NCBI GenBank assembly: GCA_009885845.1
Contig: VFJW01000001.1
Coordinates: 1 to 64,000 of the forward strand
DNA length: 64,000 nucleotides
Reading direction: 5' to 3'
Source of the DNA: Geobacter sp.
GTDB taxonomy: Bacteria > Desulfobacterota > Desulfuromonadia > Geobacterales > Pseudopelobacteraceae
Numbering within the stretch: position 1 is the first letter of the stretch; the number at the start of each line of letters is the position of its first letter. The translations under genes were made by a program, and so were the position numbers. The notes under the pieces were generated by a model, which was not told the DNA's origin, did no database searches, and saw only the letters and a program-made list of their open reading frames with translations. Positions 38,430-57,549 of this stretch are shown one piece after another.

Positions 38430-38653
38430 TGAAGCGGACTACAATTTTTGCCGATGATAGCCTGCTTGACGAGGTTAAATACTTGGCAAAAACAAAGAAA
38501 ATCAGTGTTGCGACTGTTGTTAGAGAAGCTCTCGTAAGCTATCTGGCGGCGAATAAACCGGAACGGACTACGGACTTGGCATTCATCGCCATTGGCCAAA
38601 GCGGAGAATCGGATATTGCAGAACGCCACGAGGAACTGTTGTGGCAAAAATAG
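38429..38653 (+). CDS. vapB: RHH-type antitoxin of a VapBC pair
   Basis: This 74-residue protein has the ribbon-helix-helix start MKRTTIFADDSLLDEVKYLA followed by a second helix (ISVATVVREALVSYLA) and an acidic C-terminus for toxin binding. GGAGGTG precedes the ATG. It overlaps the toxin gene by 13 nt. As usual for antitoxins it should neutralise the PIN toxin and repress the operon, perhaps through the inverted repeat over its own ribosome site. Confidence 0.85.
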   Translation: MKRTTIFADDSLLDEVKYLAKTKKISVATVVREALVSYLAANKPERTTDLAFIAIGQSGESDIAERHEELLWQK

Positions 38654-39078
38654 TTTCGATTGCTCCGATATTGGTTGATACCGGTATAATCTACGCATTA
38701 GCTGACCGTTCCGACTCCTGGCATGTTCGCGCCCGCACCTTTGTTGAAACCTTCAAGGGGGCGCTGGTTATCCCTTCCATGGTTATTCCCGAAGCATGCT
38801 ATCTTCTGCAGACGCATCTGTCGCCTCTGGCGGAAACCGCTTTTGTCAAATCAATTATCAACCGGGCATTGAGGCTTGAGCACGTTGATGAGGAAGATTT
38901 AAGCCGTGCGGTTGAGTTAATGGATGCATATCCTGATCTCAAGATCGGCCTGGTGGATGCTTCGGTTGTCGCAGTGGCGGAGCGCCTTAATATCTCAGCG
39001 ATAATGACCACTGATCGTCGCCATTTCTCAGTTATACGCCCTAAAAATTGTGCGGCATTTACTTTGCTGCCGGAATAG
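38641..39078 (+). CDS. vapC: PIN-domain ribonuclease toxin
   Basis: This 145-residue protein starts at GTG 38641 after GAGGA, within the end of vapB. The PIN acidic residues are visible: Asp in ILVDTGIIYAL, Glu in VIPEACYLL, Asp in LVDASVVAVAERL, and the late TTDRRHF with Asp. VapC-type toxins cut specific RNAs, often tRNA-fMet or rRNA loops. The pair is intact, unlike the PIN fragment at 16.1 kb. It lies between era and der. Confidence 0.88.
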   Translation: MAKIVSIAPILVDTGIIYALADRSDSWHVRARTFVETFKGALVIPSMVIPEACYLLQTHLSPLAETAFVKSIINRALRLEHVDEEDLSRAVELMDAYPDLKIGLVDASVVAVAERLNISAIMTTDRRHFSVIRPKNCAAFTLLPE

Positions 39079-40537: not shown

Positions 40538-42208
40538 ATGAGCCTGGTAGGTACCCTCGAAGAGCTTGGACTTGGCGAGATATTTCAGATCGTCAGTCTC
40601 AGCAGAAAAACCGGCGTTCTTTCCCTTAGCAGCAGGGACAGAAATGGCTCGGTTTTTTTTCGTCATGGCCAGGTTATCAGAGCCACTTCAAGCACCTATA
40701 AACAAAGCCTGGGGGAGGTACTGATTCAAAAAGGGGTCATTGATCTACATATGCTGCGCAAGGCTCTTGCTTTGCAGCATGAATATAAATTTTGTGAGCG
40801 CCTTGGGGTTATTCTTGTGAAGAATTTTGGTGTTTCTCAAGAGGTAATTGAAGAAGTAGTTCGGGAACAGATTGAAAATGTAGTTTTTTCGCTGTTTTCC
40901 TGGACAGAAGGTACATTTAATTTTCATGCCCAGAGCTCGATTGAAGCGGTTGATGGCACAAAGATGGATCCACGGCAGTTTATGCTTGACCAGGGACTGA
41001 ACCCTCAGTTTCTCGCCATGGAGGGCAGCAGGCTTCTTGATGAAACACGTCATTCAACTGAAATAGGTGTAGCTGGCGATGACTCGTTCAACGATTCTGC
41101 TGAATTTGATATTGACTTGACAAATGGTTTAAATACTCCGGTTTCGTACCCACGAGTGACTCAGAACACGGTGGTTATTGTTGATGATGACGGCCCGACT
41201 TTACAGGCTATCGCCGATGGACTAAGGGAAAGCGGGCTTGTTGTTCATGCCATGACACGCAGTGAAGATACGCTGATCAAGGTAGACTTGCTACGCAGAG
41301 GCGATGAAAACCCATTGGTTCTCGTTGATCTGATAATGCCGAAAATGGACGGATCCGGCGTACTGGGCGGCATAGAATTACTGGAGCTTCTGCATAACAA
41401 TTTCAAAGATCTGCAACTGATAGTCATGACCGATTATCAGCACGCGGATGCTGAGAACAAAGTCCATGAACGCGGCTATCCTTTTATCACGAAACCCCGG
41501 CGCGTTGAAATTACCACTCCTGATATCATGAAAAATTTTCTTTCGAGGATTATTCATGATATCCATCACTACTCTGACGCCATCACTGCCGGCAAAAAAC
41601 CACTGCGATTCAATCTTGGTGACGAACTGAGAATTGAAATGGGTGATGATGATGACATGCCGCATGCCGTTAAATCACCTCAATCGACCGGCGGTTTTTC
41701 TCTGTTGCGCGGTATGCTCGAGGAACTGAATAATCCGGATCTGCAGGGTGGGGTGCTTCTTCTGGTTCTTCGTTTTGCGTCAGAATTTTTAAACAGGGCA
41801 ATAGTTTTTACTATCAATGACCGGATCATTTCCGGATTTGGACAATTCGGCATCATCGGCGGAACAACCAACGGAAATGAAAGAGTACGGGCAATACAAT
41901 TTTCCCAAGACTCCGGTTCAATGTTTGACGAGCCATTTCGTTCCTGCCAGCCGCATACGTTCTCACCAATCCCCACACCGATAGATTCCTATGTGTTCGA
42001 CCAATTGGGCGGCGGGTTGCCTTCAGAGGTTTATATCGGGCCGTTAATCAGTCAATCTCGGGTTATCGGATTTCTTTATGGGGACAACCTTCCGGAAAAT
42101 AAACCGATTGGCAACATTGAACCTCTGGATATTTTCCTGTCACAGGCAGGAATTTCGATTGAAAAATCTTTACTGGAACGACAGCTAAACGAGAGGGGAA
42201 CCCCGTGA
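40538..42208 (+). CDS. DUF4388-receiver-GAF-like regulator, first gene of the chemosensory operon
   Basis: This 556-residue protein has an N-terminal DUF4388 (PATAN-like) domain (about 1-95, with GTLEELGLGEIFQIVSLS and GVLSL), a linker, a receiver-like domain (about 205-330, with VVIVDDDG and LVDLIMPKMDG, including an insert), and a C-terminal GAF-like region (about 385-550). PATAN domains are typical of complex regulators in delta-proteobacteria. Its stop overlaps the next start (GTGA). It probably receives phosphate from the CheA of this operon; its output is unknown. Confidence 0.85.
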   Translation: MSLVGTLEELGLGEIFQIVSLSRKTGVLSLSSRDRNGSVFFRHGQVIRATSSTYKQSLGEVLIQKGVIDLHMLRKALALQHEYKFCERLGVILVKNFGVSQEVIEEVVREQIENVVFSLFSWTEGTFNFHAQSSIEAVDGTKMDPRQFMLDQGLNPQFLAMEGSRLLDETRHSTEIGVAGDDSFNDSAEFDIDLTNGLNTPVSYPRVTQNTVVIVDDDGPTLQAIADGLRESGLVVHAMTRSEDTLIKVDLLRRGDENPLVLVDLIMPKMDGSGVLGGIELLELLHNNFKDLQLIVMTDYQHADAENKVHERGYPFITKPRRVEITTPDIMKNFLSRIIHDIHHYSDAITAGKKPLRFNLGDELRIEMGDDDDMPHAVKSPQSTGGFSLLRGMLEELNNPDLQGGVLLLVLRFASEFLNRAIVFTINDRIISGFGQFGIIGGTTNGNERVRAIQFSQDSGSMFDEPFRSCQPHTFSPIPTPIDSYVFDQLGGGLPSEVYIGPLISQSRVIGFLYGDNLPENKPIGNIEPLDIFLSQAGISIEKSLLERQLNERGTP

Positions 42209-42585
42209 GCACCAAGACCATTTTAATTGCCGACGATTCACCTACAATGCGCACTATGTTAGTTGCTATCATTGAAGGACTCGGTGACTATAAGACTGTT
42301 GAGGCTTCCAGCGGATTTGAGGCGCTCCGTCTTCTCCCACGCGAACAAGTAGACCTGATTCTGACTGATATAAATATGCCTGATATCAATGGACTCGAAT
42401 TAATCAGTTATCTTCGAACCAATCAGAATTACAAAGATATTCCGATTTTTATTATTTCAACTGAAGGCAGCAAGCAGGATATTGAAAAAGGGAAACTGCT
42501 CGGTGCGGACGAATATGTGGTTAAACCGTTTTCTCCGGAAACTCTCCAACAACTAATCAGCCGTTATTTGATAAAAAAACCCTGA
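42205..42585 (+). CDS. cheY: CheY-like response regulator
   Basis: This 126-residue stand-alone receiver starts at GTG 42205, overlapping the previous stop by 4 nt. It has Asp10-Asp11, acceptor Asp55 (ILTDINMP), a conserved Thr/Ser in IISTEG and Lys in VVKPFSPE. It fits a CheY that would be phosphorylated by the CheA 23 nt downstream. Whether it acts on a flagellar motor, on type IV pili or elsewhere cannot be judged here. Confidence 0.92.
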   Translation: MSTKTILIADDSPTMRTMLVAIIEGLGDYKTVEASSGFEALRLLPREQVDLILTDINMPDINGLELISYLRTNQNYKDIPIFIISTEGSKQDIEKGKLLGADEYVVKPFSPETLQQLISRYLIKKP

Positions 42586-42607
42586 CGGGTGTTTTAGGTA
42601 CAGCACT

Positions 42608-44713
42608 ATGAATGATTCCAACGCCGTACATACTTCAAAGGTCCTTCAGGATTTTCTTGCTGAAGCGGAAGAGATAGTCGAACAACTCAGTTCTGAGTTG
42701 TCTGATCTCTCTGATATGGCTGAAAATGGTGATTATAATCCAGATGTTCTTAACTCCATTTTTCGGGGAGCTCATTCCCTGAAAGGATTAGCCGGGATGT
42801 TCGGATTTCCTGGGGTAGCTGATCTATCACATAACATGGAAAACCTTCTTGACTGGCTGAGGCTCGGGAAATTAGATCTGACCCAGCAACTTATGACTGT
42901 TTTGTTTGAATCTCAGGATCTGTTGAGTTCCCTTATTCAAGCTCTTGCTTCTGGGGAAGAAACAAACATGGAGCTTGAAATTGCTGCATGTGTAATGAGG
43001 ATGAATAACTGTCTTGCCCCGCCTGATAAACAGATCGGTGTGTCTCCTCTTGAAGCTATTGGTCTTCCTGTTCATGTGCGTGATGCCCTTACAGAATATG
43101 AGGAACATCGTCTGAAAGATAATCTGGTCAAAGGAAGATTTATTTTTAATATTTACACATCATTTGATCTTTCAACCTTTGACATTGAATTGTCGGCCGT
43201 CACGGAGATATTGAAAGGGTGCGGGGAAGTTATCAGTACGTTGCCGAGTGTTGGTGTAAATCTTGAGACCAATATCGATTTTGAAATTCTTTTCGGTTCC
43301 AGCTGTTCTCTTGCTGAATTGAAAGATTCCATTGAGAAAGATAACATTATTGTTTCACAGTTCGAATCACATACTGCTTCCGATGGAGTTTTTTCTGAGA
43401 CAGATACACATTATGCCTGCTCAGCAGACCCGGCTGGAAAAACAGATCGTACGTTTGATCTACCATTACCACACCCGGTGACAACAACCCTGCTCTCGCC
43501 AGAGGATGTGGTACAGAGTGCAAAAAGTATGAGCAGGACTGTTCGAGTTGATATTGGCAAACTTGATGAGTTAATGAACATCGTCGGAGAACTCGTACTT
43601 GCCAACTCGATTATTTCCGATGTTGCCATCAAGTTGCGTTACGAAGGTTTTTCACACATAGCAATTGAACTGGGCAAAGCCGCAAAAGGGCTTGAGCGGA
43701 AACTTTCAGATCTCCAGAAAGGGGTTATGGAAATAAGAATGATTCCAGTCGGACAGTTATACGAGAAGATGTCGCGAATTGTCCGAAAGATCTCCCGCGA
43801 GCAGGGAAAACGGGTAGACCTTAAATTTTTTGGTGCTGATACCGAGCTGGATAAATTGATTGTTGAAGATATATCTGATCCGATGATGCATATTATTCGT
43901 AATGCAATCGACCACGGTATCGAGTCACGTGATATACGCACTGCACAGGGGAAAAACGAAAAAGGAACCATCAGGATTTCATCGTACCAAAAAGGAAATC
44001 ACGTTGTTATTGAAATTGAAGATGATGGTGGGGGAATCGATGTCGATAAGGTTAAAAGGAAAGCATTACAAAAAGGGTTAGTGAGCGACATAAGCACCGT
44101 ATCTGATCGTGATGCAATCGATTTTATTTTTCTGCCCGGTTTTTCGACCAACGAAACCGTTAGTGAAATTTCCGGACGAGGCGTTGGAATGGATGTTGTC
44201 AAAAACAACATCTCAGCAGTTTCCGGTATGGTTGATGTAGAAACGCGAAAAGGCGAAGGAAGTCGCTTTATCATAACTCTGCCGATCACGCTGGCTATTA
44301 TCAAAGCCTTGATAATTCGCTGTAGTGATAAAACATATGCTCTGCCAATCACCTCAGTCCTTGAATCGTTTTTAATGACTGAAAAGGGCATTATGACGGT
44401 TGAACGGAGAGAGGTCGTACAACTCCGCGAATCAACGTTACCTCTGCTGAGGCTTGAGAACTATTTTGACATATGTCGCAGTGATGAACCCCCCAAAGAA
44501 TTTTATGTTGTTGTCGTCGGCGTAGCCGAGAAGCGTCTCGGTATTGCGGTCGACACTCTCGTCTGTCAGCAGGATATCGTAATAAAGCCGTTGGGTGAAG
44601 CATTCAAGCAGTTTCGTGGTGTTTCGGGAGCAGCAGACCTTGGTGACCAGCGCACCATTCTTGTTTTGGACGTGAGCGGAATAATTAATGAATCAATGCG
44701 TTCCGGGAGCTGA
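42608..44713 (+). CDS. cheA: Chemosensory histidine kinase CheA
   Basis: This 701-residue protein has an Hpt domain with the phosphorylated His56 (AHSLKGLAG), a middle P2-like domain (about 160-245), a dimerisation domain (about 300-365), a HATPase domain (NAIDHGIE, DDGGGID and GRGVGMD boxes) and a C-terminal CheW-like domain (about 560-695). It controls phosphorylation of CheY and CheB. All functional residues I can see are intact. It is cytoplasmic and would dock to chemoreceptors through CheW, yet no receptor is coded nearby. An ATPase gene follows 5 nt later. Confidence 0.95.
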   Translation: MNDSNAVHTSKVLQDFLAEAEEIVEQLSSELSDLSDMAENGDYNPDVLNSIFRGAHSLKGLAGMFGFPGVADLSHNMENLLDWLRLGKLDLTQQLMTVLFESQDLLSSLIQALASGEETNMELEIAACVMRMNNCLAPPDKQIGVSPLEAIGLPVHVRDALTEYEEHRLKDNLVKGRFIFNIYTSFDLSTFDIELSAVTEILKGCGEVISTLPSVGVNLETNIDFEILFGSSCSLAELKDSIEKDNIIVSQFESHTASDGVFSETDTHYACSADPAGKTDRTFDLPLPHPVTTTLLSPEDVVQSAKSMSRTVRVDIGKLDELMNIVGELVLANSIISDVAIKLRYEGFSHIAIELGKAAKGLERKLSDLQKGVMEIRMIPVGQLYEKMSRIVRKISREQGKRVDLKFFGADTELDKLIVEDISDPMMHIIRNAIDHGIESRDIRTAQGKNEKGTIRISSYQKGNHVVIEIEDDGGGIDVDKVKRKALQKGLVSDISTVSDRDAIDFIFLPGFSTNETVSEISGRGVGMDVVKNNISAVSGMVDVETRKGEGSRFIITLPITLAIIKALIIRCSDKTYALPITSVLESFLMTEKGIMTVERREVVQLRESTLPLLRLENYFDICRSDEPPKEFYVVVVGVAEKRLGIAVDTLVCQQDIVIKPLGEAFKQFRGVSGAADLGDQRTILVLDVSGIINESMRSGS

Positions 44714-44718
44714 CATAT

Positions 44719-45519
44719 ATGTATAAACGCTATTTTGGCTTTACGGAAAAACCGTTTAGTAAAACCCCTGATCCCCGTTTTTTGTATTTGAGTCGCGGAC
44801 ATGAAGAGGCGCTCGCTCGACTGGAGTTTGTTGTAGAAGAGCGTGAACTTGCTGTTTTAACAGGCGAAATAGGCTGCGGCAAAACTACGTTGTCGAGAGC
44901 TCTCATGGATCGTCTCGGCCCAAAATTTCGTTTTTGCTATATTATCAATCCTCGCTTGAATGCGATTGAATTTCTTCGAACTATTGCCAGAATTCTTGAA
45001 GTAGAAGTGCCGGCTGATGCCAAGGATACTCTTATCAATCAGATACATACTGCCGTTTATTCTCTGAATCAACGCGATATATGTCCGGTTTTGGTAATTG
45101 ACGAAGCCCAAATGATAACAGATGCTGAAGTATTTGATGAAATCAGGCTTTTGACTAATTTTCAATTGGATGACCGCAACCTGCTGAGCGTTGTTATCAT
45201 GGGACAACCTGAGTTGCGGCCGATGATGGCTTCCAGCCGGTTCGAACCTCTTCGCCAGAGAATTTCACTTCATTATCACCTGAAACCTTTGTCACTTGAT
45301 GAAATAATGGAATATCTCGATTTTCGGCTTGAGGCGGCCGGTGGGACTTCCGGTCTATTCACTCCGGATGCCGTTCAGCGGATTCATGAACTAAGCGGCG
45401 GCGTTCCGCGAAAAATAAATTCCATGGCAACCAATGCTCTGCTTGTGGCATTCGGAATCGATGCCGCACTAATTGATTCCAGCATCATAAACGAAATTAA
45501 AGATGAATTGATGATGTAG
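44719..45519 (+). CDS. ExeA-like AAA ATPase within the chemosensory operon
   Basis: This 266-residue protein has Walker A GEIGCGKTT (residues 49-57), Walker B VLVIDEAQ and the late RQRISLHYHL segment, as in ExeA/GspA-type ATPases. It opens with the typical YFGFTEKPFSKTPDPRFLY. ExeA proteins use ATP to help build secretin complexes with a peptidoglycan-binding partner. This one lacks the membrane and peptidoglycan-binding part. It lies 5 nt after cheA and 11 nt before a CheW, an unusual place; a role in positioning or remodelling of the array is only inference. Confidence 0.9.
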   Translation: MYKRYFGFTEKPFSKTPDPRFLYLSRGHEEALARLEFVVEERELAVLTGEIGCGKTTLSRALMDRLGPKFRFCYIINPRLNAIEFLRTIARILEVEVPADAKDTLINQIHTAVYSLNQRDICPVLVIDEAQMITDAEVFDEIRLLTNFQLDDRNLLSVVIMGQPELRPMMASSRFEPLRQRISLHYHLKPLSLDEIMEYLDFRLEAAGGTSGLFTPDAVQRIHELSGGVPRKINSMATNALLVAFGIDAALIDSSIINEIKDELMM

Positions 45520-45530
45520 GCGGTACCGAA

Positions 45531-46289
45531 ATGGATCTCGCAAAAATAAGAAAAAAATCATTGCTCATACCGGCTGATCCTGTTGAATACGCTCTGTCAA
45601 CTCCGGAAGCTTTGCCGGAATCAGTACAAAACATGCCTGAAACCGTTTTGTCCGTTACTGCATCATCTCCGGTCGTTTTTTTTCAAAAAGCATTACCTGT
45701 TACTACTGTTGCTTCCAGGGAGATTGTTCCGCTTTCGGAATCGGCAATACATACGGAAATTTTCACACCGCTCGAAGCTATTCTGGCCGCAAGAACTGCC
45801 GCAGGGTGCGATGCTGAGTCATTCATTGCCGATGGTGCCACCAATCTGATGGTTGTTGAATCTTTTCAGGAATTTCTCTGCTTTCGTGTTTCTGATGAAA
45901 TATATGGTATAAACATCACGGATATTAAAGAAATTATCAAGCCGAGAGTGGTAACCGAGGTTCCTCGTGCTCCGGCTTTTGTTATGGGTGTGCTCTCACT
46001 TCGGGGCACAATAATTCCGATCATTGATATGCGGATTCGTCTGGGTTTGGGTCTTGCCGGTTCCGGTGGGAGAGAACGGATTATCGTCATCAGAAACAAT
46101 AATTCTTTCAGCGGCCTGCTGGTTGATGAAGTGATCCAGGTTGTAAAAGTTCAACTGGAGTACGTTGAGGCTGTTCCTACTGTTCTTGATGGCGTTGATC
46201 GTGATTTTATCAGTGGTCTTGGTCGTTCTGACGGGCGGTTAATTATCATTTTGAATCTTGAAAATATTACTGACATTAATCTCTATTAA
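45531..46289 (+). CDS. CheW-domain protein with long N-terminal extension
   Basis: This 252-residue protein has a CheW domain at the C-terminus (about 110-250, with CFRVSDEIYGINI, LRGTIIPIIDMR and GLLVDEV). Residues 1-105 form an unusual Pro- and Ser-rich extension of no known domain, probably flexible. CheW links CheA to receptors. The extension could bind another protein, such as the ATPase coded just before it. It is the first of two CheW in the operon. Confidence 0.9.
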   Translation: MDLAKIRKKSLLIPADPVEYALSTPEALPESVQNMPETVLSVTASSPVVFFQKALPVTTVASREIVPLSESAIHTEIFTPLEAILAARTAAGCDAESFIADGATNLMVVESFQEFLCFRVSDEIYGINITDIKEIIKPRVVTEVPRAPAFVMGVLSLRGTIIPIIDMRIRLGLGLAGSGGRERIIVIRNNNSFSGLLVDEVIQVVKVQLEYVEAVPTVLDGVDRDFISGLGRSDGRLIIILNLENITDINLY

Positions 46290-46301
46290 AAAGGAACCGA
46301 C

Positions 46302-46691
46302 ATGCTTAAAAAGAAAAGAGTTTTAATCGTTGAAGATGAAGAAAGTCTGCTCAAGCTGGAAACAATTCTTCTGACCGTTAAGGGCTTTGAAGTATCTGGA
46401 GCATCTACCGGTAAAATGGCTATCGACAAAATAGGAGAGGAAGATTTTGATCTTGTTTTGCTGGACATCATGCTGCCTGATTTTGATGGTTTTGAAGTAT
46501 GCCGGCTGATCCGTAACAATCCCCGCACAGCAACTGTTCCGATTATAATGCTTACCGGTAAAAAATCGCAGAATGACCATGATAAGGGATTGTTGTGCGG
46601 AGCTGATTCCTACATTGTAAAACCGTTTAAATCTGCCATGATTCTTGATGAGATCAATCGATTACTGGCTCTATCTACGGTCCGTGCGTAG
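46302..46691 (+). CDS. Response regulator, stand-alone receiver
   Basis: This 129-residue protein is a receiver with Glu11-Asp12 (IVEDEE), acceptor Asp55 (LLDIMLPDFDG), Thr in MLTGKK and Lys in IVKPFK. It is closer in style to PhoB-like receivers than to the CheY at the start of the operon. AAAGGA precedes the ATG. It is a second possible phosphate target for CheA. Its end lies 1 nt before the next CheW start. Confidence 0.9.
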   Translation: MLKKKRVLIVEDEESLLKLETILLTVKGFEVSGASTGKMAIDKIGEEDFDLVLLDIMLPDFDGFEVCRLIRNNPRTATVPIIMLTGKKSQNDHDKGLLCGADSYIVKPFKSAMILDEINRLLALSTVRA

Positions 46692-46692
46692 C

Positions 46693-47133
46693 ATGGAGGA
46701 TGCAACAAATCATATCCAGTTGGCCTGTTTCATTCTTGAAGATAAACAGTTCGCTGTTGATATCATGAGAATACGTGAAATTATTGTTCCCCATCAACTC
46801 TCGCCATTTCCCTGTTCTACCGAGCTTCTGGAAGGAGTAATTAACCTTCGTGGCACCGTTATTCCGGTAATGAACATGCGTAAGCGATTCGGGATTCCCG
46901 TTATTGACGATGCCGCTGCCGGAAAAGTTCTGATTGTAACTCTGGTCGGACAATTACTTGCTCTTATTGTCGATGATGTTATGGAGGTTATTTCTGTTCC
47001 GGTGACGGACATAAAATCACCGATCCTCATTGATTTTGGGGTGGGTATGGAAATTATTTTGGGAGTCTGCCTTGTAAATACTCGCGTCGTAATGATTCTG
47101 GATATTGATTCACTCCTTTGTACTCATACGTAA
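46693..47133 (+). CDS. cheW: CheW-like coupling protein
   Basis: This 146-residue protein is a plain CheW (ACFILEDKQFAVDI, LRGTVIPVMNMRKRFG, LIVDDVMEV). The ATG at 46693 is chosen since longer in-frame starts lie within the preceding gene; a GTG at 46684 is possible. The ribosome site is not evident, so it may depend on coupling with the gene before it. Two CheW in one operon may give different coupling to receptors made elsewhere. Confidence 0.9.
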   Translation: MEDATNHIQLACFILEDKQFAVDIMRIREIIVPHQLSPFPCSTELLEGVINLRGTVIPVMNMRKRFGIPVIDDAAAGKVLIVTLVGQLLALIVDDVMEVISVPVTDIKSPILIDFGVGMEIILGVCLVNTRVVMILDIDSLLCTHT

Positions 47134-47178
47134 TACGTCCTCCGTTATATCAATGAATACTATATCAGGAGTAGCAAG

Positions 47179-49014
47179 GTGACGAATTTTCAAGCCATAT
47201 GCTGTGCCCTTCAATCGGCTGATGAAGAGGCGCGCAGGTCTGCTCTGTATTCGGTAAAAAGTTTTACGAGTGAGGATGAAATACAGGCAGTGCTGTTCAC
47301 AGCGATGGGCGACAAAAGCTGGAGGGTCCGAAAAGAGGCGGTAGAGTTGTATGTTTATTCGCAGCCGGATCTTATTTCTATTGAACGACTGTTGAATCTT
47401 CTTCGTAATGAAGAGAATGCCGGTTTAAGAAACTCTGCAGCAGAGGCCATTATTCGTCTTGGATCATTGTCTGCAACGCTATTGATGGATATGGTGCAGG
47501 ATCAGGATACCGCTGTGCGCAAATTTGTCATTGATGTCATGGGGGCAATTGGTGATACAGTTTTTGTACCGGCATTATTGCATGCATTGAATGATCCCGA
47601 AGTAAACGTTGCTTCAGCCGCTGCTGAACAACTGGGAGCGCTTGGTGATCCTGATGTGGCGAAATATCTGATGCAGGCAATTTTCATTCGTGATGAATTA
47701 CTGTTCCGCTTCAGTACACTGGGAGCATTGGAGATTCTTGCAATATCGGCACCGGTACCGGAAGCACTGTTGGACCTGGCAGGTCAGGATGTGCTTAAAA
47801 AGGCTGTTTTAAATTGTTTGGGGGCTATTTCTGATGAAAGCTCTGTTACATTACTTCTCGATAATTTTTCATGTCGACAAAAGAACAGTCGAGCAGCAGC
47901 GGTTACATCTCTGTACAAAATCTACCGTCGTTCTTCGCCTGAATCACAGGAAAGAATCCATCTAGCGCTTCAGTTACTTAAGGAAAATGATATTATTCCA
48001 GGTTTGTTGGAACTGTTTGATCATCAGGATTGCAAATTGACGGAAGCCCTTCTCTGGACCAGTATTGAAATCAGAGACGCTCGCTTTATACCGATGCTGA
48101 TTGAAGCATTTACCGCCGAACGAACCGCCTATGACGCACTGGTTGCCCTGAAAAGCTTTGGTCGTGATGCTTTGCTTGAATGTATCTCCCGATATTCAAG
48201 TTTTGATGAGAATGGACGAAGCGGGCTCTGTTTCATGATCGCTGAATGTGGATATTCCGGTTTTAATGATCTTATTCAGATGGCGTTACAGGATCAATCA
48301 GCACAGGTTCGTAAAACTGCCGCAATCGCGACAGGAAAACTCGGCCTGGTTACTTTGATTCCAGATCTGATTTTGTTAGTTGACGATAGGGAGCCTAGCG
48401 TTTATGCAGCAGCCGTTTCCAGCTTACAATCACTGGCCTTGATCAGCCGCATGGCGATCCTGACTGAAGTTGGTCATTTCTGTTCATCAAAAGCCTCTCA
48501 CCATCGAAAAGCCGCAGCACTTTTACTCGCATCACTGGGCGAAAGGGATCGTTTGTTATTGTTGATGAATGATGAAGATCCACAGGTTCGTAAAGTTGCC
48601 GTTTCGGCAATTGGGGCTGACTGGATTGAAACGGCCGGATCAATGCTTGTATTGGCCCTTTCTGATGAAGACCCTGATGTCCGCATAGCGGTTGCCGATA
48701 CCCTGGGAAATATACGTGATACCTCTGTACTTGATACCCTTGAATATGCTCTGAATGACCAGGACGTCTGGGTTCAGTCTTCCGTTTTAAAGGCGATTGC
48801 ACGCATTGAACCGGCAAGGGCATATTCAATTATCAAAAACATATATATCAAGACCGAAGGAATGTTGTTGATTACAATGTTACAAATTCTTGAAGAAGAT
48901 GACAGTTCCGAATCAGTTGAGATCATCCGCCATGCTCTTAAAAGCAGTGACCAGGATATTGCACGACAGGCAGCAAAGTCACTGGAACACGTTATCGCTA
49001 CATATCCAAACTAG
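47179..49014 (+). CDS. HEAT-repeat protein of the chemosensory operon
   Basis: This 611-residue protein starts at GTG 47179 after AGGAG. It consists throughout of HEAT-like helical repeats of about 30 residues, with recurrent units such as DPEVNVASAAAEQLGALGD, DPQVRKVAVSAIG and DPDVRIAVADTLG. Such superhelices are protein-binding scaffolds. It has no signal peptide or membrane segment. HEAT or PBS-lyase-like proteins are known in some chemosensory clusters, and it probably bridges CheW, CheR or regulators. The exact partner is unknown. Confidence 0.88.
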   Translation: MTNFQAICCALQSADEEARRSALYSVKSFTSEDEIQAVLFTAMGDKSWRVRKEAVELYVYSQPDLISIERLLNLLRNEENAGLRNSAAEAIIRLGSLSATLLMDMVQDQDTAVRKFVIDVMGAIGDTVFVPALLHALNDPEVNVASAAAEQLGALGDPDVAKYLMQAIFIRDELLFRFSTLGALEILAISAPVPEALLDLAGQDVLKKAVLNCLGAISDESSVTLLLDNFSCRQKNSRAAAVTSLYKIYRRSSPESQERIHLALQLLKENDIIPGLLELFDHQDCKLTEALLWTSIEIRDARFIPMLIEAFTAERTAYDALVALKSFGRDALLECISRYSSFDENGRSGLCFMIAECGYSGFNDLIQMALQDQSAQVRKTAAIATGKLGLVTLIPDLILLVDDREPSVYAAAVSSLQSLALISRMAILTEVGHFCSSKASHHRKAAALLLASLGERDRLLLLMNDEDPQVRKVAVSAIGADWIETAGSMLVLALSDEDPDVRIAVADTLGNIRDTSVLDTLEYALNDQDVWVQSSVLKAIARIEPARAYSIIKNIYIKTEGMLLITMLQILEEDDSSESVEIIRHALKSSDQDIARQAAKSLEHVIATYPN

Positions 49015-49021
49015 GTCGTTC

Positions 49022-49900
49022 ATGACGTTTTCTTTTGCATATGATCATAGTATGTCCGACGACGAATTCATCCTGTTGAGGGATTGTATCTACGTGCATT
49101 GCGGGATCTATTTTGATCTGGGCTCAAAGTACATTCTCGAAAAGCGGCTTTACCACCGTTTAACAGATCTGAATTTCACCACTTTTTATGACTACTATCA
49201 TTTTTTAAAGTTTGACAGGAATAAAGATCAGGAACTAGCTTATATTATGGATGTTCTTACTACTAACGAGACATATTTTTTTCGTGAATCGTTCCAACTC
49301 AAGGCTTTTACCGATGAAATTATTCCTGAATTAATTACCCGTAAAATTGCATGCGGGAGCCGATCGTTGAAAATATGGAGTGCAGGGTGCTCTACCGGGG
49401 AAGAACCGTACACTATTGCGATGCTGCTGAGTACCATTCGAGAAATCAAGGGATGGAGTATTGATATAATCGGTACCGATATCAGTCAGAAAGTACTGAA
49501 GCAGGCTCGTCGAGCTATATATAGCAAATCTTCGTTTCGGGCTACTGAAGAGAGTAATCTGCAGAGTTTTTTTCATCAGCATGAAGACGGTTACAAGGTA
49601 AATGATTCTATCAGGGAAATGGTAACCATAAGTCATCTCAACCTTTTTGATACACATCGACTGGCCATGCTCGGTAAAGTTGATCTTATTTTTTGTAGAA
49701 ATGTAATTATCTACTTCGATCTGGAAGCCAAAAAGCGCGTTATTGATTCTTTTCACTCTGCTCTGCATGACGGCGGCTACCTCCTTCTGGGACACTCTGA
49801 ATCTCTCATGAACATCTCGACTCAGTTCACCCTCCGTCACTTCAAAAATGACATGGTGTATCAAAAACCTGACCGTTTGTCTGCAGGAGGCATTCTGTGA
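49022..49900 (+). CDS. cheR: Chemoreceptor methyltransferase CheR
   Basis: The start is placed at the ATG at 49022, 7 nt after the previous stop, giving 292 residues; an in-frame start at 49052 is possible. The N-terminal helical CheR domain is followed by the SAM-binding methyltransferase domain with [27 protein letters not shown] and a late [12 protein letters not shown]. It methylates Glu residues of chemoreceptors. Its presence with CheB shows that the pathway adapts through receptors, though none is coded here. Its stop overlaps the cheB start. Confidence 0.93.
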
Positions 49901-50967
49901 AGAAAATCAGGATAGTTGTTGTTGATGATTCCGCGTTCAGCCGTCGCACCATAACCCGTATGCTTGAAGGAATCGATTCTGTAGAGGTTGTGGGATACGC
50001 AATAAACGGTGAAGAAGGCATTCAAAAGGTTATTGCACTCAAGCCGGATCTGGTAACACTTGACCTTGAAATGCCCAAAATGGATGGATTTACGCTGCTG
50101 CGGATTCTGAAGACTCGATTCTCAATTCCAGTTATTGTGATTAGTGCTCTGAGTGGTGCAGATAAGGTCTTTAGAGCACTCGAACTAGGTGCCCTTGATT
50201 TCGTGACTAAACCTTCCTCCTCCGCTTCAATTGATCTGCTCTCAATTAAAGACGATCTTCAGAAAAAGGTCCTTCAGGTACTTGCGCTTAAACCGGGTGG
50301 TTCTGCCCGCGTCACTTCTGAAAATATGTTCACGGAGCGCAGATCAGTAGAAATTCTACGCGCCGGGAACCTTGGCAGTGTTTTTCGACATGCCATTGAT
50401 CTCGTTGCAATAGGCTCTTCTACCGGCGGACCACCGGCTCTGCAGCAGATATTTTCTGCTTTTAAACATACGTATCCTTTTGCGATCGTAGTATCCCAGC
50501 ATATGCCGGCAGGCTTTACCAAAGCCTTTGCAGACAGACTCAACCGTACCTCGCTTTTTGACATTAAAGAGGCGGAAGATGGAGATCTTGTCCTTCCCGG
50601 TAGTGCTCTGATCGCACCTGGTGGCAAAAATATGATTTTTGAAGTATGTAGCGGGCAGGTAACAGCACGAATCGTTGCTCCCGCAGAATCTGATAGGTAT
50701 ATCCCTTCTGTTGATGCCATGCTCCAGTCCTGCGCCGGCATTTACCAGAAGCGGGTAACAGCGGTCATCCTGACCGGAATGGGCAATGACGGTAGTAAAG
50801 GTGTTAAAATTATTAAGGAAAATGGCGGGTATGTAATTGCTGAATCGGAGGAAACCGCAATTGTATACGGCATGCCGCGTGAAGCTGTCGCTACTGGAGT
50901 TGTAGATAGCAGTGTCCCGCTTGACAGAGTTGCTTCAGAAATTATTCTTCAGGGTGGTTTTTCCTGA
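49897..50967 (+). CDS. cheB: Chemoreceptor methylesterase CheB
   Basis: This 356-residue protein starts at GTG 49897, overlapping cheR by 4 nt. A receiver domain (1-120, Asp10-Asp11, acceptor Asp56) leads to the methylesterase domain (about 165-350) with the catalytic Ser in GSSTGGP, His in SQHMPAGF and Asp in GMGNDGSKG. It removes methyl groups from receptors when phosphorylated by CheA. The 27-haem cytochrome gene begins 24 nt after its stop. Confidence 0.95.
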
Positions 50968-50991
50968 TTCAAGTAACGAGGTATTTTGTTT

Positions 50992-53151
50992 ATGAACTTG
51001 TTCCGTATTTTTTTATTGATCGTTGGTATGGTCGCTTCTTCTGGGTCAGTTTTCGCTGATTTCAAGCAGCCACTGTTAATTAAAACATTAAAAGTCGGAA
51101 ACATCCCTTTTAGCCATGAAACTCACCTCAAAAACCTGAACAACAACTGCTCTGCCTGCCATAACTCGATATTCCACATTATTCGAAAAAACAATCAGTC
51201 CGTCACAATGTCTGAAATGGAAAAAGGCAAATCATGCGGAGCATGTCACAACAAAGATAATCCAAAAACTCCGCAACTGAATAATTGCTCAACCTGCCAT
51301 ATGGTTGATGTTGTATTGATAACCATTCCCGATTTCGGGACACTGGCTTTCAAACACAGCAAGCATCTCGGCATGTTCACCTGTACCGATTGCCATGATG
51401 CCATATTCAAGGCAGAGAAGAGCAATCCACCCGTCAGCATGTCCCAGATGCAGCAGGGAAGTTCCTGCGGCAGTTGTCATGATGGTTCGGGCGCATTCTC
51501 TGTTAAAGGAGATTGTGTAAAATGTCACCAGGTAGGTGACATTCCGCTGGCCGGTGGCTCAGTATTCAGCCACAGTGCTCATCTTGAAATGTCATATGCC
51601 TGCTCTGAATGTCACAACAAAATTTTTGTTCCCGGGCCGAACCGTATAAGTTACACCATGCTTGATATGGAATCAGGCAAATCGTGTGGAGCCTGTCACA
51701 ACGGAAAAACTGCCTTTTCTTCCAAGCGTGATTGTCAAAAATGTCATAAGAACGTCACGGACGTTAGATTCAAAGCTTTTGACGCCAGATTCAGCCATAA
51801 TGATCATCTCAAAATGTTTAAATGCGATGAATGCCACAGTGCAATATTTGTTGGCGGAGCCCGAAGTATCCGCTACACAATGTCACAAATGGAGCAGGCA
51901 AAATCGTGTGGAGCTTGTCATGATGACAAGACCGCATTTGGGGTGACCGGAAATTGCGAGAAATGTCATCCAACAGCGCCCCCAGATCGTATTTTTATAA
52001 TCAAGGATATTGGTGTTGTTACGTTCAGTCACGCAAAGCACCGCTCCAATTTTTCCTGTGCCCAGTGTCATAATGATATTGTTGCTGCCGGAGTTGCTTC
52101 CCGGCGTTTTACCATGGGCGAAATGGAAAAAGGGGCGTCATGCGGAGCGTGCCATGATGGGAAAATGGCCTTCAGTGTTACGACGTGCAATAAATGCCAT
52201 CCGGTCAAAGAAGTTTTATTTTCCGATGATGCCCGTTTCAATCATGATAAACATCTTGCCATGTACTCATGCACTGACTGCCACAACAAGCTGTACAGTG
52301 CCGGACCTGGTAACAAGCGGTTTTCTATGGCACAGATGGAGAAAGGGGCTTCTTGCGGCAGCTGCCACGACGGTTCGACTGTTTTCAGCGTAAAAGGCAA
52401 TTGTGAAACCTGTCATAAATCTACTGTTAATGTTGTTTTCAAAGTCAAGGAGACCGGCTCTACAACTTTCAGCCACTTGGTTCATAAAAACATGTTCAAA
52501 TGTAGCGAGTGTCACAATGATATTTTCAAGGCAGGCAAAGAGAGTATTCGGGCTAGTATGGCAGATATGGAAAAAGGGAAATCATGCGGTGCCTGCCATG
52601 ATAACAAGAGTGCTTTTGGAGTGAAATCCGACTGTCAAAAATGTCATACAGTCAAACAGATACATTATCGCCCCGGCAGCGCAGTTTTCAGCCATTCGGT
52701 ACATATTGCCGCGTATAGCTGCAAAGATTGTCACCCGGAGCTTTTTATACCGGGTGCCGGGAACAAACGTTTCACGATGAGCCAAATGGAGCAGGGCAAA
52801 TCATGCGGCAGCTGCCATGATGACAAAACCGCTTTCAGTGTGAAGTCAAACTGTGGAAAGTGCCATCCTGGAACCCCGCGCTCAGTGCGGTATGAGTTGT
52901 CTCCAAGTACCGGAAACGTCGAATTTGGCCACAAACTGCATATTGACAAAGGGTATGTTTGTAGTAATTGTCATTATGCCGTCATACCCTCGGGTGCTTC
53001 AGACAAGCGCTGGGTGATGAAGGAGATGGACCAGGGCGGATTCTGCGGTAGTTGTCACGGTTTCAGCATGGCTTTCAGCGTCAAGGATCCGACAAACTGT
53101 GAACGCTGTCATCAAAAAGAATCGGATTGGCGCCCGCAACTGCTACAGTAA
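50992..53151 (+). CDS. Secreted 27-haem c-type cytochrome made of nine triheme modules
   Basis: The ATG at 50992 begins a signal peptide ending VFA-DF, so the 719-residue product is exported. I count 27 CxxCH haem motifs, three in each of nine repeats of about 75 residues. Each repeat has the order FSH..H-CxxCH-(about 20-25 residues with a Met-rich EMEKGKSCGACH segment)-CxxCH-CxxCH, as in cytochrome c7 and the nanowire triheme repeats of Geobacter. Extra His (FSHxxH) probably are distal ligands. It has no membrane segment or lipobox. It should form a long haem chain carrying electrons in the periplasm or outside. It lies 24 nt after cheB, so it is probably cotranscribed with the chemosensory genes. 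Confidence 0.95.
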   Translation: MNLFRIFLLIVGMVASSGSVFADFKQPLLIKTLKVGNIPFSHETHLKNLNNNCSACHNSIFHIIRKNNQSVTMSEMEKGKSCGACHNKDNPKTPQLNNCSTCHMVDVVLITIPDFGTLAFKHSKHLGMFTCTDCHDAIFKAEKSNPPVSMSQMQQGSSCGSCHDGSGAFSVKGDCVKCHQVGDIPLAGGSVFSHSAHLEMSYACSECHNKIFVPGPNRISYTMLDMESGKSCGACHNGKTAFSSKRDCQKCHKNVTDVRFKAFDARFSHNDHLKMFKCDECHSAIFVGGARSIRYTMSQMEQAKSCGACHDDKTAFGVTGNCEKCHPTAPPDRIFIIKDIGVVTFSHAKHRSNFSCAQCHNDIVAAGVASRRFTMGEMEKGASCGACHDGKMAFSVTTCNKCHPVKEVLFSDDARFNHDKHLAMYSCTDCHNKLYSAGPGNKRFSMAQMEKGASCGSCHDGSTVFSVKGNCETCHKSTVNVVFKVKETGSTTFSHLVHKNMFKCSECHNDIFKAGKESIRASMADMEKGKSCGACHDNKSAFGVKSDCQKCHTVKQIHYRPGSAVFSHSVHIAAYSCKDCHPELFIPGAGNKRFTMSQMEQGKSCGSCHDDKTAFSVKSNCGKCHPGTPRSVRYELSPSTGNVEFGHKLHIDKGYVCSNCHYAVIPSGASDKRWVMKEMDQGGFCGSCHGFSMAFSVKDPTNCERCHQKESDWRPQLLQ

Positions 53152-53205: not shown

Positions 53206-55677
53206 GTGGAGCAGAAGTATTCACCAATAGACGTTGAACAAAAATGGCAGGCCATCTGGGAAAACGAAAAAACTTTCAAAGCATCCACTGACAGAAGTAG
53301 GCGTAAATATTATCTTCTGGAGATGTTCCCATACCCTTCAGGACGTATCCATATGGGCCACGTCCGCAATTATTCTATCGGCGATGTTATCGGCAGATTC
53401 AAAAGAATGCGCGGGTACAATGTCCTGCATCCGATGGGATGGGATGCTTTTGGCATGCCGGCCGAAAATGCTGCCATTCAGAATAAGAGTCATCCTGCTA
53501 CCTGGACACATGAAAATATTGCATACATGCGGAATCAGATTAAAAAAATGGGGTTTTCCTACGACTGGGATCGTGAATTGGCTACGTGCGATCTTGATTA
53601 TTATCGATGGGAACAAAAACTTTTTCTGGAAATGTTTGCCAAGGGACTGGCCTACAAAAAAACCTCTTTTGTTAACTGGTGTCCTACTTGCGAGACAGTA
53701 CTTGCCAATGAACAGGTCGAAGATGGTGGTTGCTGGCGGTGTGACAGTGACGTTAACCAGAAAGAGCTTGATCAGTGGTTTTTCCGCATAACCGATTATG
53801 CCGAGGAACTTCTTGAATATACGTATAATCTTCCCGGTTGGCCGGAACGGGTTCTTATCATGCAGCGTAACTGGATTGGCAAAAGTTATGGCTGCGAAAT
53901 CGATTTTCCTGTTGAAAACAGTACGGAACCTATTCGGGTTTTCACCACCCGACAGGACACCGTCTTCGGAGCGACCTTTATGTCGTTGGCTCCCGAACAC
54001 CCACGGGCCCTTGAACTTACATCCGCTGACCAACGGGAAACGGTCATGGCATTTATCGATAAAATCAGAAAAACCGACCGCATGAAACGCACCGCTGATG
54101 ATTTTGAGAAGGAGGGGGTTTTTACCGGTTCATACTGCACTAATCCGGTAAGCGGAGAGAAAATGCCCGTTTTTCTGGCCAACTTTGTCCTGATGGATTA
54201 TGGCACAGGTGCAGTCATGGCGGTTCCGACTCACGATCAACGCGATTTTGAGTTTGCCAAAAAATACGATCTACCTCTGAAAGTTGTAATTCAACCGTCC
54301 GGGGTAACTCTTGACCCGGCCACAATGGGTGAAGCATATACGGAAGCCGGTATTATGGCAAATTCAGGCCAGTTTGACGGTCTGCCGAGCAACGACGCAA
54401 AAGAAGCAATTGCCGACTTTTTACAAACACGGAAACAGGGCGCCAAAACAGTAAATTTCCGTCTCCGTGACTGGGGAATTTCGCGCCAGCGTTATTGGGG
54501 AAATCCTATTCCGGTTATTTACTGCAACGACTGTGGCGTCGTACCGGTACCGGAGAAAGATCTGCCTGTCGTACTCCCGAAGGATGTGGCGTTCAGCGGA
54601 GAAGGGGGAAGTCCGTTGGCACGGCTGGAGTCCTTCGTACAGTGTTCCTGTCCGGTGTGCGGGAAAGCTGCCCGTCGTGAAACTGATACCATGGATACCT
54701 TTGTTCAGTCTTCCTGGTATTTCCTTCGATTCTGCTGCCCTGACTTCAATGACGGGATCCTCGATCGCGACCCGGTTGACTACTGGATGTCGGTAGATCA
54801 ATATATCGGGGGTATCGAGCATGCTGTTTTACACCTGTTATATGCCCGGTTTTTTACTAAAGTAATGCGTGATCTGGGACATATTACTGCCGACGAACCA
54901 TTTACCAACCTCCTGACTCAGGGAATGGTCATAAAAGACGGCGCCAAAATGAGCAAATCGAAAGGAAATGTTGTTGATCCGAACTCCTTGATCTCAAAAT
55001 ACGGAGCGGATACCGCTCGACTGTTTTCGCTCTTCGCAGCACCACCGGAAAAAGACCTGGACTGGAATGATCAGGGCGTAGATGGTTCTTTCCGTTTTTT
55101 GAGCCGCATCTGGAAGCTCGTACATGATCGCCTGGACATGATTAAAAATGCTGCTCCGCTTGATATCGCTGCAATAACTGCCGAAGAGCGTATTCTGCGC
55201 AGAGCAGTTCATAAAACGATCCGTAAAGTTTCAGAAGATATTGAGGATCGTTTCCATTTTAATACCGCAATAGCTTCAGTCATGGAACTGCTAAATATTC
55301 TACAACCGGCACATCTTCCATCTCCTCAATTTCCGGCAATTATGAAAGAATCTCTTCAGAGTGTAATTCTGCTTATGGCTCCGTTTGTCCCTCATATTAC
55401 CGAGGAACTCTGGCAACGCATGGGAAACTCTGTGCAATTGACTCAAGCCGCATGGCCGGAATACGACCGGAATGCCGTTGTTGATGAAGAACTTTTGATT
55501 GTCGTTCAGGTTAATGGCAAATTGCGTTCAAAAATAACTGTTTCAGCCGGTACGGGTGATGATGAAGTTAAGGCTCTTTCGCTGGCAGATGAAAAGATTG
55601 CGCAATTCATTGCGGGCCTGACTGTCAGGAAAGTTATTTGCGTACAGGGCAAGCTTGTTAATATTGTGGCGGGGTAG
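53206..55677 (+). CDS. leuS: Leucyl-tRNA synthetase
   Basis: This 823-residue protein starts at GTG 53206 after GAAAGGAA. It has the HIGH-type motif ([14 protein letters not shown]), a zinc-binding CPTC...C..C region (near residue 160-180), the CP1 editing domain and KMSKS ([10 protein letters not shown]). Length and motifs match bacterial LeuRS, whose task is to charge tRNA-Leu and to remove mischarged amino acids. It opens a leuS-lptE-holA unit, an order seen in many Gram-negative genomes. Confidence 0.97.
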
Positions 55678-56208: not shown

Positions 56209-57207
56209 ATGACATCTCAGGAGTTTGAAACGTCTCTGAAAAAAGGCACCGTACCAGCTATTTGTTTTCTGTATGGTGAAGAGCAGTTCCTGGTGGAACG
56301 GGCAATACATATGATGCTTGAACGTGCCATTGACCCATCACTTAAAGACTTTAATTTGAATGTTTTTTACGGTAATGAGTCAAAAGGCACTGATATTGTA
56401 GATGCTGCTCAAACGTTGCCGATGTTTTCAGAGCGGCGGGTAGTTCTTGTCAAACGGGCAGAGCAACTAAAAGCAGATGCTCTTGAAGCTATGCTTCCAT
56501 ACGTCTTGAATCCATCTCCCGGTACCTGTCTGCTACTGACCGGCACAAAGATTGACCAACGCAAAAAGTTTTTTCTTGAATTTAAAAAGCATGGCGTCAT
56601 GGTTGAGTATAAGTGTTTCTATGACAACAAACTGTCCGGATTTATCCAGTCTGAATCAGTTACTCATGGGAAACCGATAGAACCGGCTGCTGCGGAACTC
56701 TTAGCCGCGCTGATCGGCAATAATCTTCAGGAGTTAAGCTCGCAGATTGAAAAGCTTGTGGTTTATGCAGGCATCAAACAACGGATAACTGTAGAGGATG
56801 TTCGTACCATGGCCAGTAGCAGCAAAGCCTTTACCGCTTTTGAACTGGCCAGGTTTCTCGGCTTGCGTGATACTTCCAATGCAATCAAAAGCCTGGATGC
56901 CTTGTTTTTGAATGGTGAAGAAGCTCCGATGATGGTTGGTGCACTGACTCGCCACTTTCGGCAACTATGGAAAGTCAGAGAGCTGCTTGACAAAAAAATG
57001 CCACAGGCTGATATAGGCCGGGAGCTTACAATTAATTCATTTTTTCTTGGCGAAATTGTCGCACAGGCCCGCAATTTTACCAGACGGGAACTGAAGCGTA
57101 TTTTTGATGAGTTTTATCGCTGTGATGTCGCTTCAAAAACGGGGGGCGGCCAGTCTTACACACTTCTACACGGTCTTGCCATGGGGATTTGCACCGGTGG
57201 CTGGTAA
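56209..57207 (+). CDS. holA: DNA polymerase III delta subunit
   Basis: This 332-residue protein begins with the HolA pattern (FLYGEEQFLVERAI), has the late helical LIGNNLQELSSQIEKLVVYA region and a C-terminal GALTRHFRQLWKV segment. It opens the beta clamp in the clamp-loader complex. It starts 2 nt after the lptE stop and ends the leuS operon, with a strong terminator 27 nt after. Confidence 0.93.
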   Translation: MTSQEFETSLKKGTVPAICFLYGEEQFLVERAIHMMLERAIDPSLKDFNLNVFYGNESKGTDIVDAAQTLPMFSERRVVLVKRAEQLKADALEAMLPYVLNPSPGTCLLLTGTKIDQRKKFFLEFKKHGVMVEYKCFYDNKLSGFIQSESVTHGKPIEPAAAELLAALIGNNLQELSSQIEKLVVYAGIKQRITVEDVRTMASSSKAFTAFELARFLGLRDTSNAIKSLDALFLNGEEAPMMVGALTRHFRQLWKVRELLDKKMPQADIGRELTINSFFLGEIVAQARNFTRRELKRIFDEFYRCDVASKTGGGQSYTLLHGLAMGICTGGW

Positions 57208-57234
57208 GTGCAACCACTTAAAATTCTTAACAAA

Positions 57235-57269
57235 AAAAAGGGGGCACGCATAAGCGCAGCCCCCTTTTT
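57235..57269. terminator. Bidirectional terminator between holA and rpsT
   Basis: AAAAAGGGGGC (57235-57245) pairs with GCCCCCTTTTT (57259-57269) around a 13-nt loop, with A and T runs on both sides. It serves both converging genes. Confidence 0.9.
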
Positions 57270-57285
57270 GCATTAGTAGTATGAA

Positions 57286-57549
57286 CTAGCCGAGAGTATT
57301 AACCAGCTTGGTAAGTCGTGAAACATTACGGGAGGCGGTTGAGCTATGAATAACACCTTTAGTGGCAGTAGCATCAATGACCGGTATGGCAACCTTGAGA
57401 GCCGCAATAGCGGCATCCTTGTCTTTGGCTTCAACCGCTTCGCGAACACGCTTGATATATGTTTTCAGCGTCGATGAAACATGACGATTACGTGCCGTTT
57501 TCTTTGCACTCTGCTTGATCCTCTTGATTGCCGACTTATGATGAGCCAA
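57286..57549 (-). CDS. rpsT: 30S ribosomal protein S20
   Basis: This 87-residue basic protein has the S20 features: [14 protein letters not shown] at the start, Lys/Arg-rich helices, and [12 protein letters not shown] at the end. It binds 16S rRNA early in 30S assembly. The start codon is TTG (minus strand 57549-57547), with GGAGG 7 nt before it. A rare UUG start is also known in E. coli rpsT, where it takes part in autoregulation of S20. A good promoter lies at 57598-57627. Confidence 0.95.

Follow-up and report, generated by a model that had tools for sequence, protein, structure and literature searches.

A chemosensory (che) gene cluster that runs directly into the gene of a 27-haem cytochrome is found at positions 40538-53151 of the 64,000-nucleotide (nt) stretch of Geobacter sp. 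DNA analyzed here (assembly GCA_009885845.1, contig VFJW01000001.1, positions 1 to 64,000), which is referred to as the window. The cluster encodes, in order, a DUF4388-receiver protein (g1), a single-domain receiver (CheY1), CheA, an AAA ATPase, CheW1, a second single-domain receiver (CheY2; 46302..46691, + strand; PF00072, E 5e-27), CheW2, a HEAT-repeat protein, CheR, and CheB, followed by the cytochrome (50992..53151, + strand). Among relatives, CheY2 and the cytochrome have repeatedly been lost together, and the che core remains in genomes that lack the cytochrome. The original prediction, made from the sequence alone, took the run for one transcript and supposed that the cytochrome ties signaling to the redox state, either as a target or as part of the sensing path. 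As judged from the comparison of sequences and loci, the cytochrome has its probable role in an accessory output branch that runs through CheY2, and not in sensing; the fuller reading favored here, in which that branch pays off through the cytochrome, is put forward tentatively.

Conservation of Gene Order

The cytochrome gene is found in 42 of 277 genomes of the class Desulfuromonadia, all within the same order, when full-length, near-full-length, and two-piece genes are counted. leuS is the next gene downstream in all 42, and 40 of them have che genes immediately upstream, in line with the gene order on which the original prediction was built; in one of the two exceptions (G023), the contig begins at the cytochrome. 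Three families of the order share the der-che-cytochrome-leuS synteny. Outside the family of the window genome, 23 of 25 loci have a receiver gene as the immediate upstream neighbor of the cytochrome (the exceptions being G239 and G276), usually no more than approximately 60 nt from its first likely start (14 loci measured), whereas cheB takes this place in the window. Terminator-like sites are rare at the junctions of relatives, being found at 1 of 15 cheB-cytochrome junctions (G022; simple hairpin plus T-run rule), 1 of 30 cytochrome-leuS junctions (G046), and 0 of 54 cheB-leuS junctions in genomes without the cytochrome. The junction sequence of G011 resembles that of G022, yet is unflagged by the terminator rule.

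Over 28 genomes, cytochrome distances track those of LeuS (r 0.93) and CheA (r 0.94), and the cytochrome has thus mostly been inherited in place; horizontal gain is not favored for the same reason. The correlation for CheY2 distances is low (r 0.51, and 0.22 within the family), which we think was spoiled by G023, where only a paralogue was available. The proposed tie between the che genes and the cytochrome is sustained by the linkage in most genomes, by the scarcity of terminators at the junction, and by the co-loss of CheY2 described below; its extension to a sensing role is not. Two further arrangements were seen near these loci: a GAF gene also precedes the cytochrome in L042, and in another family of the order (L081, L082, and L084, from G037, G040, and G045) a distant cheA (40-42% identity) and a cheW adjoin leuS.

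Loss of the Cytochrome and of CheY2

Gene content was scored in 87 of 97 genomes (G000-G096); the remainder comprised G002, G025, G071, and G084 (cytochrome state unknown), G023 and G067 (CheY2 unknown), and G037, G040, G043, and G045 (no such cluster beside leuS). The cytochrome is absent from 58 of the 87, and these 58 genomes retain cheA in 57, cheW1 in 58, cheR in 57, cheB in 57, the ATPase gene in 55, and the HEAT gene in 52; the contig of G086 stops short of cheA, and G078 is without cheR and cheB. The che core is kept whether or not the cytochrome is there. A receptor candidate encoded outside the cluster is retained likewise. Five matches to methyl-accepting chemotaxis proteins (MCPs) occur in the window genome, one of which (L150) has both a GAF and an MCP signal domain, as well as membrane stretches recognized by eye, and is a candidate counterpart of EsnA, the GAF-type MCP GSU1704 of G. 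sulfurreducens (PMC5585712). It is matched at E <= 1e-90 and 65-89% identity in 72 of 76 family genomes, namely 16 of 17 cytochrome-bearing genomes and 56 of the 59 others. For the beta group of che clusters, to which we return below, the partner MCP would be expected to belong to class 40H, to carry a cytoplasmic GAF domain, and to be encoded elsewhere (PMC2577667; PMC5585712).

These observations bear on the supposition that the pathway is informed of the redox state of the periplasm or the cell exterior through the cytochrome. Its location in a chemosensory locus would suit such an input, and haem-containing receptors exist in Geobacter (GSU0582 and GSU0935; PMC2577667). Nevertheless, a redox input is very improbable: genomes that have lost the cytochrome still have CheA, CheW, CheR, CheB, and the GAF-type MCP, the five MCP matches of the window genome show neither a haem-binding sensor domain by Pfam nor a CXXCH motif by eye, and the protein that is co-lost is a cytoplasmic receiver and not a receptor. 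Because the receptor candidate, CheA, CheW, CheR, and CheB all stay, an accessory output branch fits better than sensing.

Over the 87 genomes, 29 have both CheY2 and the cytochrome, 49 have neither, 9 have CheY2 only, and 0 have the cytochrome only. Since the cytochrome is never seen without CheY2, an order of loss is suggested in which the cytochrome goes first and CheY2 after. cheW1 is followed directly by cheW2 in 48 of the 49 genomes without CheY2. CheY2 lies 4.3 kb upstream of the cytochrome and the intervening genes are mostly kept; therefore, the two losses are separate deletions. A careful locus tree was built from seven proteins (3035 columns), and pairs were counted on supported branches: among 8 independent pairs differing in the cytochrome, an average of 6.7 show a parallel difference in CheY2 and 0 an opposite one (median p 0.0156). 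A quick tree gives 9 pairs for CheY2 (median p 0.0078). Furthermore, a two-trait Markov model, rough in that it uses a midpoint root and a flat root prior, favors dependent evolution of CheY2 and the cytochrome with a likelihood ratio (LR) of 52.4 (4 degrees of freedom, df). The residues E11, D12, D55, and K107 are present in 38 of 38 aligned CheY2 copies and T85 in 37 of 38, and CheY2 thus looks like a working receiver.

Several points count against a dependence of CheY2 on the cytochrome. The one genus in which the pattern first came to notice is part of the set later used to test it; trees from LeuS alone and from eight proteins with 41 rows yield 3 supported pairs each (p 0.5), too few for the pattern to show, after which the genome set was widened to the family. 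The HEAT and CheY1 genes show no link with the cytochrome (0.4 and 0.3 of 8 pairs; LR 6.3 and 5.2, 4 df), but with only 3-4 changes of state they have little force as controls, and they, too, have been lost only where the cytochrome is absent. The C-terminal half of g1 goes missing with the cytochrome as well (5.7 of 8 pairs, median p 0.031, LR 24.2), and the link is thus not unique to CheY2; moreover, CheY2 is kept without the cytochrome in three clades (G053/055/057; G058-060; G024/031/032). At the level of the locus, the cytochrome and leuS of G276 (L158/L168) lie behind a hydrolase-like gene, apart from che, and an intact che cluster including CheY2 lies on another contig, where no cytochrome or leuS match is found in the 7.6 kb after the cluster. 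In G022, a hairpin plus T-run separates cheB from the cytochrome. Judged from sequence, both genomes make obligatory co-transcription less likely. A few states need qualification: G075 has the cytochrome and lacks g1 by tblastn; G034 is uncounted for g1 in the pair test and counted as lacking it in the likelihood test; the CheY1 LR counts G091 as lacking CheY1 though a match exists, and the pair test uses the corrected state; and the partial HEAT match of G008 was scored first as absent and then as present, with the pair-test result unchanged.

A common cause could produce the same pattern, if lineages that change their respiration lose the cytochrome and CheY2 with neither acting on the other. 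The joint loss of CheY2 and the C-terminal half of g1, and the confinement of HEAT and CheY1 losses to genomes without the cytochrome, are in keeping with this explanation, which we regard as rather unlikely given that the che core and the GAF-type receptor candidate are retained and that trihaem cytochrome matches are not fewer without the gene (mean 6.5 rows in 24 genus members versus 6.4 in the 11 with it). The cytochrome might also stand between che and leuS as a neighbor only, by ancestry and slow rearrangement and with no functional tie. In agreement with this, the flanking housekeeping genes der and leuS are conserved to the same degree, leuS, lptE, and holA are packed alike, and the cytochrome of G276 stays with leuS and not with che; against it stand the co-loss of CheY2 on the tree and the direct linkage to che in nearly all genomes with the cytochrome, and it is considered unlikely.

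Organization of the Gene Cluster

Eleven + strand open reading frames (ORFs) with the domains first claimed for them are all present between 40538 and 53151, with gaps of at most 45 nt. Taken from the likeliest starts, the gaps are, in order, -4, 22, 5, 11, 12, 1, 45, 7, -4, and 24 nt; the "several" 4-nt overlaps first reported come down to two, between g1 and cheY1 and between cheR and cheB. Briefly, g1 (40538..42208) matches PF14332 (E 4.9e-30) and PF00072 (E 3.3e-9), and its C-terminal half has a GAF-like look when judged by eye. CheY1 (42205..42585) matches PF00072 (E 6.7e-29). CheA (42608..44713), EsnC-like by gene order, comprises Hpt, dimerization, ATPase, and CheW domains, and the AAA ATPase (44719..45519) matches PF13401 (E 4.3e-23) and scores 230 bits with TIGR03015, below the cut-off of 324.5. 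CheW1 (45531..46289; PF01584, E 7.3e-34) is EsnB-like by order, and CheW2 (46693..47133; PF01584, E 1e-29) is taken from the ATG at 46693, chosen from the sequence in an ORF that opens at 46645. The HEAT-repeat protein (47179..49014) matches PF13646 (E 4.8e-53). CheR (49022..49900; PF01739, E 9.4e-60) is likewise taken from a chosen ATG, at 49022, in an ORF that opens at 48890, and CheB (49897..50967) has a match to PF01339 (E 2.9e-60) and a receiver domain (PF00072, E 3.3e-23). All lie on the + strand.

The ATG of the cytochrome at 50992 lies 24 nt past the cheB stop, as claimed, and no terminator is found in between, either in a consensus scan or as a hairpin plus T-run in a second scan. An internal promoter candidate (TTGACA-16-TATTCT, 50921-50948, 10 of 12 matches) is unflagged in the relatives' junctions listed (15 with the cytochrome and the rest without), where the pattern was sought in the last 60 nt of cheB, and it is therefore not taken as functional. 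The scan gives no clear excess of promoter-like sites (35 versus 32.0, standard deviation 5.6) or of terminator-like sites (20 versus 17.1, standard deviation 4.0). Upstream, the der-g1 gap of 91 nt contains a weak promoter-like match.

The packing makes a single transcript plausible, but the supposition that the operon ends in the cytochrome is unsupported. leuS (53206..55677, + strand) begins only 54 nt further on and possibly belongs to the same transcript, with no hairpin plus T-run found by the scan in the gap, and lptE and holA follow on the same strand. By the same criterion of packing, the run goes on through leuS-lptE-holA, and the operon may end beyond the cytochrome. A strong terminator-like hairpin (free energy, dG, -18.5) is found at 57198-57290, 3' of holA; a convergent - strand ORF (57286-57549) comes after it. 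At the other side of the locus, a PIN-domain gene (38641-39078) lies between era and der in the window genome. Among the mapped relatives it is matched in G021 and G024 only, and era and der adjoin or overlap in many others.

The 27-haem Cytochrome

The cytochrome comprises 719 residues with 27 CXXCH, zero CX3CH, and zero CX4CH motifs, and is built of nine modules of 71-80 residues each. Every module contains an F-x-H-x-x-H motif, three CXXCH motifs, and an M-x-x-M ahead of the middle CXXCH; two extra His residues of the protein fall outside this scheme. Nine stretches match the nanowire trihaem model TIGR04257 (694 bits versus a cut-off of 40) and nine stretches match PF14522 (Cytochrome_C7). 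The best solved relative is the dodecahaem cytochrome GSU1996 (PDB 3OV0, E 2.7e-76), which is made of the same trihaem module, although it has four modules in place of nine. One haem per module of GSU1996 has His-Met ligands (PMC10138318). In each module of the window cytochrome, two bis-His haems would be accounted for by two spare His, and one His-Met haem by the Met; these ligands are read from residues only, whereas those of GSU1996 have been reported. The N-terminus resembles a signal peptide by eye, and the protein is presumably periplasmic. An AlphaFold2 model from 12 aligned sequences was unusable (mean predicted local distance difference test score, pLDDT, 40.5; predicted template modeling score, pTM, 0.20). 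Two side observations concern the cytochrome gene in relatives: a relative with 36 CXXCH motifs in a 972-residue open frame occurs, in addition to the 42 genomes with the cytochrome, in G113 (L163) and G107 (L164), on short contigs without a che match, and in G095 (L144) the gene matches in three separate pieces and is maybe broken or misassembled.

Likeness to Known Chemosensory Systems

The window locus is best read as the order's chemosensory locus of the beta-group (Esn) type, which here carries in addition an accessory gene for a GSU2210-like nanowire cytochrome. The beta group of che clusters was defined by Tran et al. (2008; PMC2577667) as being without MCPs, and the window cluster has cheA, cheW, cheR, and cheB and zero MCP genes among its eleven genes. 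The G. sulfurreducens cluster resembles it in the order CheA-ATPase-CheW, given there by GSU2222-2221-2220 (gene order, not sequence, being compared; GSU2221 is an ATPase, PMC5585712), in the presence of cheR and cheB, and in having a GAF-type MCP outside the cluster, for which the window genome offers a candidate. Chan et al. (2017; PMC5585712) reported that deletion of esnA, esnB (GSU2220, CheW), esnC (GSU2222, CheA), or esnD (GSU3376) impairs growth on electrodes and not on Fe(III) oxide, and Tran et al. mention effects on the extracellular matrix in unpublished mutants of cluster 5 of G. sulfurreducens. The window differs from the published Esn cluster in that the cytochrome stands directly after cheB; the text examined of PMC5585712 does not tie GSU2210 to the cluster, and a word search of the text of PMC2577667 does not find "cytochrome".

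GSU2210 has been named a 27-haem periplasmic nanowire, and a capacitor role has been suggested for periplasmic nanowires (PMC10138318), whereas its location is given as unknown in one 2026 paper. It shares with the window cytochrome the number of 27 haems and the c7-type trihaem modules of GSU1996-like proteins (PMC10138318). Other Geobacter 27-haem cytochromes are known, e.g., omcA (PMC13194489), and the haem count alone cannot identify a GSU2210 ortholog; we tentatively infer orthology from haem count, family, and locus numbering counted from GSU2220 together. In the open-access text examined, the 27-haem gene is nowhere placed in the esn cluster, and it may be so placed elsewhere in print. 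Thus, the electrode need for EsnB and EsnC (PMC5585712) and the GSU2210 nanowire (PMC10138318) are known parts, the che-cytochrome linkage is unremarked in the literature examined, and the coupling to CheY2 is, as far as seen, new.

Two further reports touch the HEAT protein. In a chemosensory system of Myxococcus xanthus, the single-domain CheY7 binds the HEAT-repeat protein Cpc7 (reviewed in PMC11514114). A cytochrome is unmentioned in that account, and the likeness to the window is one of domain types; by analogy, the pair may serve as a precedent for a core branch with a HEAT protein. A HEAT-like repeat protein, KN400_2162, is among the genes mutated in two strains after years of evolution on an anode, and it might be the HEAT gene of the window cluster type; these strains are reported without mutations in GSU1704, GSU2220, GSU2222, and GSU3376 (PMC13194489).

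Perspective

In the mechanism that we tentatively favor, a receptor encoded elsewhere, for which the GAF-type MCP is the candidate, would drive CheA, which would pass phosphate to two branches. A core branch of CheY1, the HEAT protein, and the ATPase would carry out a general job. An accessory branch of CheY2, perhaps with the C-terminal half of g1, would pay off only through the cytochrome, acting as a periplasmic electron store or wire, and packing into a single transcript would ensure that the cytochrome is supplied along with the pathway. Upon loss of the cytochrome, CheY2 would be left without a task and would decay. As the receiver is cytoplasmic and the cytochrome presumably periplasmic, the link between them must be indirect and could run through expression, export, or shared physiology. 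A bolder version, in which CheY2 is the dedicated response regulator that runs a 27-haem periplasmic capacitor, with the pathway timing when the cell commits to or leaves an acceptor and the cytochrome meanwhile holding electrons, is doubtful and would seem unlikely in so specific a form. The Esn pathway is needed for electrode growth in G. sulfurreducens. The linkage and the co-loss of CheY2 merge two questions, the output of the Esn pathway and the role of the 27-haem nanowire, into one.

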